DNA of 16,160 nt from Bacteroidia bacterium (lineage in GTDB: Bacteria > Bacteroidota > Bacteroidia > Bacteroidales > UBA12481), in contig JAPLDV010000046.1 of assembly GCA_026391235.1 (NCBI GenBank), positions 1 through 16,160 on the forward strand, read 5' to 3'. Shown here piece by piece: positions 8,294-15,774 of the stretch. Position numbers and translations under genes: made by a program. The notes beneath the pieces are model-generated. The model was not told the DNA's origin, searched no databases, and saw only the letters and a list, made by a program, of their open reading frames with translations. Every line of letters starts with the position of its first letter. Positions within the stretch are counted from its first letter, which is position 1.

Positions 8294-8302
8294 TAATGTA
8301 AC

Positions 8303-8337
8303 GGTTGTCGGTTGTCAGTTGTCGGTTGTCAGTTGTG
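8303..8337. repeat. Heptamer tandem array 2a (GGTTGTC/AGTTGTC, 5 units)
   Basis: Five units of period 7: GGTTGTC, GGTTGTC, AGTTGTC, GGTTGTC and AGTTGTG. It begins 9 bases after the stop of the dehydratase gene. As a rotation it reads CAGTTGT/CGGTTGT in the sense of that gene, fitting the same core as the other arrays. Between it and the next palindrome (8338-8401) I see only G/T-rich sequence with no clear feature. Confidence 0.8.
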
Positions 8338-8419: not shown

Positions 8420-9587
<1,168 letters not shown>

Positions 9588-11347: not shown

Positions 11348-11548
11348 TGTCATCCCCGCGAAAGCGGGGACCTCTCCCCCCTGCACTGCGCCCTTTTCTG
11401 TCATCCCCGCGAAAGCGGGGACCTCTACCCGCTGCACTGAGTGTCCTTGTGATCCCTGCGAAAAGCCTGCCCTCGCGAATGCGAAGGCCGGGACCTCTCC
11501 CCCCCTGCTCTGGGCCCCTTTTTGTCATCCCCGCGAAAGCGGGGACCT
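11348..11548. repeat. Cluster of four GAAA-loop palindromes in ~50-base tandem units
   Basis: Three intact hairpins TCCCCGC-GAAA-GCGGGGA lie at 11353-11370, 11404-11421 and 11528-11545. A fourth, expanded and degenerate copy lies at ~11448-11495. Each is preceded by TGTCA (or TGTGA) and followed by CCTCT or CCTAT. The spacers share CTGCACTG or CTGCTCTG and a C/T-rich run, so the repeating unit is ~50 bases, with the expanded copy longer. The cluster fills the gap between mutL and the first rhomboid; its final ACCT overlaps the mutL stop codon (11547-11549). Similar palindromes are known as dispersed repeats in many bacteria. They may stabilise mRNA or block 3' exonucleases; that role is inference. 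Confidence 0.8.
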
Positions 11549-12329
11549 ATGCAAGCCTCCTTTCAATCTCCTCCATCGGTAAAATAGTCAGTACCGGTTT
11601 GCCTCCCGGGGTGAATTGTGGTTCGCTGCAGGCAAACAACCTGTCGATCAGTACTGTTACTTCTTCGTCGTGCAGCGGGCGGATAAACGAAAGGGATGAT
11701 ACCCGCGCTGCCGTTTTTGCTACCTGCTCACTGAACTGACCGGCCAGATCCGGTGTTTCATTCTTAAGTTGTTCCAATAGTCCTTCAATCAAAGCTTTGG
11801 GGTCACTGGCATCAACAGAGGCGGGTACCGAACTCATAATAACACTTTGTCCGCCGAAAGGCTGTATGTCGAAACCGATAGCTGTCAATTCGTCACTCAA
11901 ATCCAAAAGTAAATTCAGGTCGACGGGGTTAAGCTCAAAGGTAAAGGGGAACAGAACCTTCTGCCTCACACCGCCAGGCTCAGTCATGTTCCGTATAAAA
12001 TCCTCAAAAAGAATTCTTTCATAAGCCCTGACCTGATTAACCACCATCAGCCCCGATTTAACAGGAATCATGATATATTTATTTTTGAGCTGCAGGCTGG
12101 CGCGGGTATCCTGTCGTAATCCTGCAAGCTCGGCCTGCTCCTTCTCCTGCTCCTGAATTGGGGTATATAACCGCTCCCACCCGGTCACCTGGGCCTCGCG
12201 TGATTGGAGTCCTGTACGCGGATCAAAGTTCCGGGGTTGATCATCGCTGTCGAATGGATTAAAATCATGGTTAACATGGATAGTTGGCGGGTTAACCACT
12301 TGTCCCGGCCGGAAATAGGGAATTTCCAT
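11547..12329 (-). CDS. mutL: MutL C-terminal fragment (linker and dimerisation domain)
   Basis: The frame is open from the lesion at ~12405, and its first ATG is at 12329. It holds a proline- and acid-rich linker (residues ~1-85) and the C-terminal dimerisation domain (~85-260), ending F-T-P-G-G-K-P-V-L-T-I-L. Where endonuclease-type MutL has D-Q-H-A-x-x-E-R, this reads N-Q-V-R-A-Y-E-R-I-L-F-E, so the metal-binding Asp and His are missing. The distal C-P-H-G-R-P motif reads T-P-G-G-K-P. Either this lineage has a non-endonucleolytic MutL or the domain has drifted. I doubt it is translated on its own, because no clear ribosome site precedes ATG 12329. Confidence 0.7.
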   Translation of the reverse strand: MEIPYFRPGQVVNPPTIHVNHDFNPFDSDDQPRNFDPRTGLQSREAQVTGWERLYTPIQEQEKEQAELAGLRQDTRASLQLKNKYIMIPVKSGLMVVNQVRAYERILFEDFIRNMTEPGGVRQKVLFPFTFELNPVDLNLLLDLSDELTAIGFDIQPFGGQSVIMSSVPASVDASDPKALIEGLLEQLKNETPDLAGQFSEQVAKTAARVSSLSFIRPLHDEEVTVLIDRLFACSEPQFTPGGKPVLTILPMEEIERRLA

Positions 12330-12388
12330 TGCCCCTTCCCGGTCAAAATCCAGTGTGGGTGTCAGGTTGAATTTGCCCAGTGCCTCCC

Positions 12389-13315
12389 TTACCGAAGCTT
12401 GAATAATTTTGTTGGATGAACGTTAACGTCGATACGAGACGGATCGATCTCGATATAGATAAAATAGGCCGGAACCGAATCGCCCGGTATAAGTTCTTCA
12501 TAACATTGAGTTACAGCTTTATGGAAATACGGATGCTTCATGAACCTGCCGTTTACAAAAAAGAATTGTTCTCCGTATGTTTTCCGGGCAAACTCAGGTT
12601 TTCCAATATAACCGCTTATCCCCATCATGGTGGTTTCGGTTTTCAGATTGACAAGCTGCTGAGCCATTGTTTTACCGAACAGATGTTGGATCCGCTCAGG
12701 AAGTCTGGCAGCAGCAAGATTATATACGTCCGAATCGTTATGATGAAGTAGAAAGGTTATTTCGTGGTGGGCAAGCGCAATTCGCTGAAATTCAATTATA
12801 ATTTGTTTTAGCTCGGTTGAATTGGCCTTGAGGAATTTCCGGCGGGCCGGAACATTATAATATAGGTTCTTTACTGAGATGCTGGTGCCCCCCGGACACG
12901 CTGCGGGTTCCTGCAACTCAAATTCTGATCCATTGATCTTGACCCGGGTGCCTGCTTCCGAACTGCCGGTTTTTGTCTTGAGTTCGATCTGGGCAATAGC
13001 CGCAATGGCAGCCAAAGCCTCACCGCGGAATCCCATGGTCCGGATGGTATAAAGGTCATCCGCCTGGCGGATTTTGGACGTGGCATGCCGTTCAAAGCAG
13101 AGTCGTGCATCGGCATCGGTCATCCCAGACCCATTATCCACCACCTGCACAAGAGTGCGCCCTGCATCTTTAATAATCACCTGGATCCGGTCGGCACCGG
13201 AATCCACCGAGTTCTCCATTAATTCTTTAACGGCCGACGCAGGTCGCTGAATGACTTCTCCTGCCGCAATCTGGTTAGCAACCGAATCGGGTAATACCTT
13301 GATTAATTCTGTCAT
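12389..13315 (-). CDS. mutL: MutL N-terminal fragment (GHKL ATPase and transducer domains)
   Basis: A 308-residue frame starting at ATG 13315. ATPase motif I is [12 protein letters not shown], with the presumed general base Glu31 and Mg-binding Asn35. Motif II is D-N-G-S-G-M, with Asp60. Motif III is G-F-R-G-E-A-L (residues 95-101). The transducer domain ends in [10 protein letters not shown], whose lysine contacts the nucleotide in known MutL structures. All ATPase residues are intact, so this fragment could still fold and hydrolyse ATP if made, but it lacks the dimerisation domain. The last five residues after T-P-T-K-type sequence are out of frame. Confidence 0.8.
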
Positions 13316-15272: not shown

Positions 15273-15314
15273 GCAGTAGGCAGTAGGCAGTAGGCAGTGG
15301 GCAGTGGGCAGTGG
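15273..15314. repeat. Heptamer tandem array 3 (GCAGTAG/GCAGTGG, 6 units)
   Basis: Three GCAGTAG units then three GCAGTGG units, beginning 2 bases after the yifB TAA stop. The unit is the same as array 2b in opposite orientation; relative to the adjacent gene both read CAGTAGG. It is followed by a degenerate GCTGCCGTGGG and then GGGATGACA, which matches the conserved left edge (TGTCATCCC, reversed) of the palindrome family. Confidence 0.88.
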
Positions 15315-15345
15315 GCTGCCGTGGGATGACAGTTTTGCATAACAT

Positions 15346-15423: not shown

Positions 15424-15774
15424 CTATCTTGAGAGATAATTGGCATCAAACATCCACGGCTCCATGGCCCTTTCAGAGGTGGTTTCCGATAAACGGTTTT
15501 CGCTGAACATCCAGCTTTCAAGGGGTTGAACTTCTTCGCTGAGGTAGCCGGAATCCATCATCCAGGCTTCAATGTTAACAGCCTGTTCTTCGTTTAAATA
15601 ATCCGAATCGAACATCCAGTCTTCAACAGGTTGCGTAAATAGCATTTCAGCATCTGGTACCTCATAGCCGCTTGTTTTTATCAGATTTTTATCGTTGTCA
15701 CCCTGAACTTTTACTGAAAAGGTAATTCCCAGAAGAATCACCAAGGCTATTTTTATCAGATTCATTGCTTTCAT
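15424..15774 (-). CDS. Small exported protein with four W-M repeat units
   Basis: A 116-residue protein. A signal peptide covers residues 1-~25 (K, then L-V-I-L-L-G-I-T-F hydrophobic core, V-Q-G). The mature part is acidic and contains four copies of a unit resembling E-x-W-M-F-D-x-x-Y-L-S-E-E. The W-M pairs lie at residues 53, 71, 88 and 107, so spacing is 17-19. The second unit reads W-M-M-D-S-G-Y-L-S-E-E and the third W-M-F-S-E-N-R-L-S-E-T. The protein ends straight after the fourth unit (A-N-Y-L-S-R). There are no cysteines, no lipobox and no enzyme motif. I do not recognise a named family, but have a sense that similar short exported proteins occur in Bacteroidota. A purine-rich AAGGGAG lies 9 bases before ATG 15774; ATG 15765 is an alternative. 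It is monocistronic and has its own terminator. Confidence 0.75.
   Translation of the reverse strand: MKAMNLIKIALVILLGITFSVKVQGDNDKNLIKTSGYEVPDAEMLFTQPVEDWMFDSDYLNEEQAVNIEAWMMDSGYLSEEVQPLESWMFSENRLSETTSERAMEPWMFDANYLSR

Follow-up and report, generated by a model that had tools for sequence, protein, structure and literature searches.

A 40-base deletion probably breaks mutL on a contig from an uncultured Bacteroidales

The gene for the mismatch-repair protein MutL lies in two reading frames on the minus strand of a 16,160-base stretch of DNA from an uncultured Bacteroidales (the whole of this stretch is called the window here). This arrangement raises a question: has the gene truly been broken, is the assembly at fault, or does a working MutL still emerge from the two parts? 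The original prediction described an ATPase half that ends at NVHPTK and a C-terminal half that continues in another frame, and the translations of the open reading frames (ORFs) bear this description out. The first frame starts at position 13315, NVHPTK ends at K303 (codon 12407-12409), and the truncated ORF, from 12389 to 13315, comprises 308 amino acids; the C-terminal frame is open from 12407 to 11550. The LFKLR tail of the truncated product is absent from all others among the 300 MutL proteins compared. TIGR00585 matches the N-terminal part at 410.8 bits, and PF08676 matches the C-terminal part (Table 1); because both parts match MutL models, the split mutL is not a chance reading. The match to PF01119 reaches profile position 95 in the window, compared with position 118 of 119 in the relative L001 (PowLak16_MAG2), which is 87% identical to the window over mutL. 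The dimerisation domain described by PF08676 is encoded, but it is out of frame with the ATPase part. Judged from these reading frames, the window is best described as carrying a mutL gene that is broken rather than as encoding a MutL protein.

Table 1. Positions of the mutL parts and related features (window coordinates unless a locus is named).
Feature	Position	Strand	Remarks
mutL N-terminal part: residues 1-303 of the native protein, with the ATPase and the greater part of the transducer domain	12407..13315	-	HATPase; PF01119 to profile position 95 of 119; 92-93% identity to intact P0182/P0183
Out-of-frame tail LFKLR and stop codon (12389-12391) of the truncated ORF	12389..12406	-	
Deletion junction, placing ambiguous by ~1 base; 40 bases of relatives absent	12404..12410	-	DNA alignment
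mutL C-terminal part, read in the second frame: linker, dimerisation domain and stop codon	11547..12407	-	PF08676, 90.3 bits; 88-89% identity to P0182/P0183
260-aa ORF with ATG start within the C-terminal part	11547..12329	-	Putative separate product if translation restarts
Four period-7 arrays, between genes	2373-2448, 8302-8336, 8420-8510, 15273-15316		
MutL departing from the endonuclease motif	window 11547-12407; L001 8001-9800; L002, L004, L005, L006, L107, L108, L109		

To define what is missing between the two parts, we used a DNA alignment with six relatives, the sixth of which, L003, ends with its contig at the gap site. Against the other five (L001, L002, L004, L005 and L006), all of which read through, the assembled window has a single gap of 40 bases. 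The early estimate of about 40 bases and about 13 residues was thus accurate: in L001 numbering, residues 304-316 and one further base are missing. The lost segment is the end of the ATPase/transducer domain, and five of its residues (T304, E305, K307, F308 and E311) are invariant across 41 MutLs. In the structure model, it contains a strand (residues 304-308) and the first part of a helix that spans 311-325. This model places the cut within the ATPase domain rather than in the linker; the structure comparison covered residues 1-331. Scanning positions 12300-12500 revealed no repeat of 8 or more bases at the junction, and no tandem repeat was found within the window’s mutL. With no flanking repeat of note, the event resembles a short deletion of the ordinary kind rather than a switch driven by repeats.

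We regard a single, recent 40-base deletion, real and causing an ordinary loss of function, as the best explanation for this locus, with a probability of about 0.73. In the contig, the absence of these bases takes out residues 304-316 and shifts the frame, with the ORF stopping five codons on. Because the ATPase half would then be both incomplete at its domain end and severed from the dimerisation domain, no working MutL would be expected, and MutL-dependent mismatch repair would be lost in cells with this allele, presumably making them mutators.

Is the split a property of the group or of this contig? Relatives were collected in one scan of GTDB genome contigs, from which the best 80 of 479 loci encoding a relative were examined. 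None of these 80 has a mutL broken by an internal stop. The mutL ORF is at least 560 amino acids long in 78 of them, and the other two, L002 and L003, end with their contig, L003 at the site itself. MutL was matched in 10 of the 12 genomes in the family of the genome G001. Nine of these genes extend across the site, all without interruption there, while the contig of G003 stops at residue 303 of its mutL. A split shared by relatives had been named at the outset as a finding that would speak against a recent break. We reject it, since it occurs in none of the best 80 of 479 loci and the nine family genes are open across the site. A true loss of mutL in G007 and G011 is likewise unsupported: the comM match is also missing from these genomes and their rhomboid matches are weak (E values of 4e-7 and 2e-4), which makes missing sequence the likely cause. 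The comparison is closest within the genus, where L001, L002, L004 and L005 read through the site and the window does not. L001 has the same gene order around mutL as the window, and the two proteins are 92% identical in the N-terminal part and 88% in the C-terminal part. In that arrangement, mutL is flanked on one side by a small ORF together with a comM-like gene (PF01078, PF13541, PF13335), and on the other by two rhomboid genes (PF01694). The gene names comM, ilvA and EEP were assigned in this analysis from Pfam matches.

As a separate observation, several other Bacteroidota MutL records are interrupted close to this point: P0119, P0056 and three of 304 aa (P0022, P0052 and P0057) stop or shift frame only a few residues away. 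These breaks could be due to chance, to partial records or to a weak spot; several of the records are short or partial.

The age of the break was assessed from the constraint on the two halves. Between the window and L001, dN/dS is 0.075 and 0.081 for the mutL halves and 0.031-0.120 for six neighbouring genes (comM, rhomA, rhomB, EEP, ilvA and orf102). In protein trees, the window’s tip measures 0.164 for the N-terminal part, against a mean of 0.140 (sd 0.047, 24 tips including the window), and 0.300 for the C-terminal part, against a mean of 0.433 (sd 0.211, 25 tips); it is no outlier in either. Both halves thus still look to be under selection. The six neighbours, aligned with L001 over 1,858 codons, are free of frameshifts and none has more than one gap codon, indicating that indel errors are not widespread in the contig. 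Taken together, halves that look selected and neighbours free of frameshifts imply that the break is recent or that it is an assembly error. The original prediction had said as much, holding the halves to be otherwise intact, and the alignment, the dN/dS values and the protein trees support it.

One comparison leans the other way. When mutL (11550-13315) was compared with L001, L002, L004 and L005 at sites where the outgroups agree, 51 changes fell on the window branch and 14 on the L001 branch (binomial p 4e-6); counted by amino acid, the figures were 14 and 7. For other genes, the corresponding counts for window and L001 were 23 and 16 (comM), 44 and 47 (rhomA), and 14 and 21 (orf102). The third-position distances of mutL to L002, L004 and L005 are also slightly larger for the window than for L001. 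Relaxed selection on the window’s mutL was therefore considered; it is absent from the pairwise dN/dS and the protein trees, although the outgroup counts nonetheless lean towards the window. The excess could mean that the break is older and constraint has relaxed somewhat, or that the L001 sequence is odd (through recombination or a slow gene).

The alternative of an assembly error takes two forms: the 40 bases may have been lost in assembly, or the consensus may represent a minor strain, the mutL of the population being intact in either case. We consider this unlikely. The contig appears to come from a metagenome or draft assembly, and the truncated form of MutL is known, among the best 8,000 candidates scored, from this contig only (its cluster holds two member sequences from one contig). 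These points are compatible with an artefact, as are the intact mutL of the relatives and the little decay seen in the halves. However, the junction has no repeat of at least 8 bases that might mislead an assembler, the six neighbouring genes are free of frameshifts, and assembly errors that drop 40 unique bases are unusual. The closest intact proteins are P0183 (93% identical in the N-terminal part and 89% in the C-terminal part) and then P0182 (92% and 88%); at identities of only 93% and 89%, the search yielded no intact MutL of the same species.

Could the two parts instead be made as separate proteins that act together? The 260-residue ORF has an ATG lying 59 bases past the stop of the first ORF, and both parts look selected, but the invariant residues are lost, the cut lies inside the ATPase domain instead of the linker, and no such split occurs in any relative examined (the best 80 of 479 loci and the family genomes); a working split MutL is accordingly very improbable. 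Ribosomal frameshifting is more doubtful still: a -1 shift at the lysine codon 12407-12409, where four A in a row would permit a one-base step back, would join the frames into a MutL 13 residues shorter, but no standard slippery heptamer (X-XXY-YYZ) stands at the junction and the product would still be without invariant residues 304, 305, 307, 308 and 311.

If the deletion is real, the window would represent a naturally occurring null allele of mutL, from an uncultured lineage of environmental Bacteroidales, and hence a candidate mutator. That MutL-dependent repair has been lost and a mutator state has followed is a plausible prediction from the loss of the gene. The substitution spectrum was inspected for an excess of transitions on the window branch, and none was seen: transitions and transversions stand at 85:47 on the window branch and 60:38 on the L001 branch (p 0.68), a comparison with little power if the break is recent. 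As regards repair partners, a MutS_I match is present in 11 of the 12 genomes of the G001 family. Second MutL matches in G002, G004 and G006 cover only the end of the protein; these matches may be the remainder of genes interrupted by contig ends.

The window also contains four arrays of period 7 (Table 1), and the original prediction had connected the broken mutL with such slippage-prone repeats. This connection is not supported, because other genomes of the genus carry the same heptamer and have a mutL that is open at the site. Allowing no more than one mismatch, three copies of CTACTGC were found in four of eight genus genomes: G001 (on 11 contigs), G002, G005 and G009. In each of these genomes, mutL continues across the site of the deletion, the gene of G002 reaching its contig end at residue 529. 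A reversed control pattern matched only in G007 (12 matches) among the eight genus genomes. Pointing the other way, TRF reported period-7 arrays for the window alone and none in 13 loci of relatives, which come from eight genomes and partly overlap. Heptamers as a mark of lost repair were rejected, given that genus mates with arrays have a mutL that is open at the site. Work on fission yeast (PMC5427490) puts the largest loop handled by MutS-alpha and MutL-alpha at four nucleotides and describes heptanucleotide repeats as unaffected in msh2, msh6 and mlh1 mutants. Should this limit carry over from yeast to bacteria, as we infer by analogy, slippage by seven bases would not be expected to need the loss of MutL. 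Heptamer arrays can exist in this group with no loss of mutL. L001 has a 26-base tandem repeat of its own (12839-12923), between the EEP and PALP genes and near the position of the window’s heptamers.

A different question arises from the C-terminal domain. MutL endonucleases carry the motifs DQHA(X)2E(X)4E and CPHGRP. In an alignment to the MutL C-terminal domain 3gab, the window and L001 both have NQVRAYERILFE at the place of the first motif and TPGGKP at the place of the second, and neither sequence conforms to its motif. The first position of DQHA(X)2E(X)4E is Asn in six, His in two and Asp in none of eight readable family genomes. In a wider set of 78 loci (from the best 80 of 479) it is Asp in 70, Asn in five and His in three; in 197 full-length proteins, chosen for likeness to L001, there are 133 with Asp, 38 with Asn, 22 with His and four with Ser. 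Of the 77 loci that could be read at the first CPHGRP position (again from the best 80 of 479), none has Cys, so the wider group also departs from the standard. A MutH match was found in none of the 12 family genomes, which are drafts; among 14 control genomes, only E. coli matched.

One could read these data as describing a family whose MutL is without a nicking site (Asp changed to Asn or His, the Cys and His of CPHGRP gone) and which has no MutH, while its MutL is still selected. Another nicking enzyme or strand signal, or another duty for MutL, would then be called for, and the loss of mutL in the window might be tolerated because the pathway was already unusual. We offer this reading tentatively and think it rather improbable. 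The more open point is the family itself, which has MutS and MutL, yet in which neither MutH nor the standard endonuclease motif was found. Among titles and the opening parts of abstracts, with few subscription papers included, we found no paper on the MutL motif of Bacteroidetes or on a broken mutL in Bacteroidales.

Two other elements of the locus deserve mention. A 25-base palindromic element, GTCATCCCCGCGAAAGCGGGGACCT, is present just downstream of mutL in three identical copies (11349-11373, 11400-11424 and 11524-11548), with 0 expected by chance. Further away, both the window (15424-15774) and L001 (5002-5496) encode a small protein in which WMFD..YL-like segments recur and to which no Pfam model matches. 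Its length is 116 residues in the window but 164 in L001, and aligning the two leaves 48 gaps; the number of its repeats therefore seems variable.

Loss alleles of mutL are already a known kind, to which the window would add another member. In Salmonella, mutL alleles are switched on and off reversibly by the copy number of small tandem repeats (PMC2955026). The likeness lies in a small change of length in mutL that yields a defective allele, there with a mutable strain as the result; the difference is that the window has no repeat of at least 8 bases at the junction and that 40 unique bases are gone. In Streptococcus pyogenes, a chromosomal island is reported to integrate in the 5' end of mutL and to leave again (PMC3430984, PMC4689407). 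There, too, mutL is put out of use in a natural lineage, whereas the window has a plain deletion inside the gene and no element.
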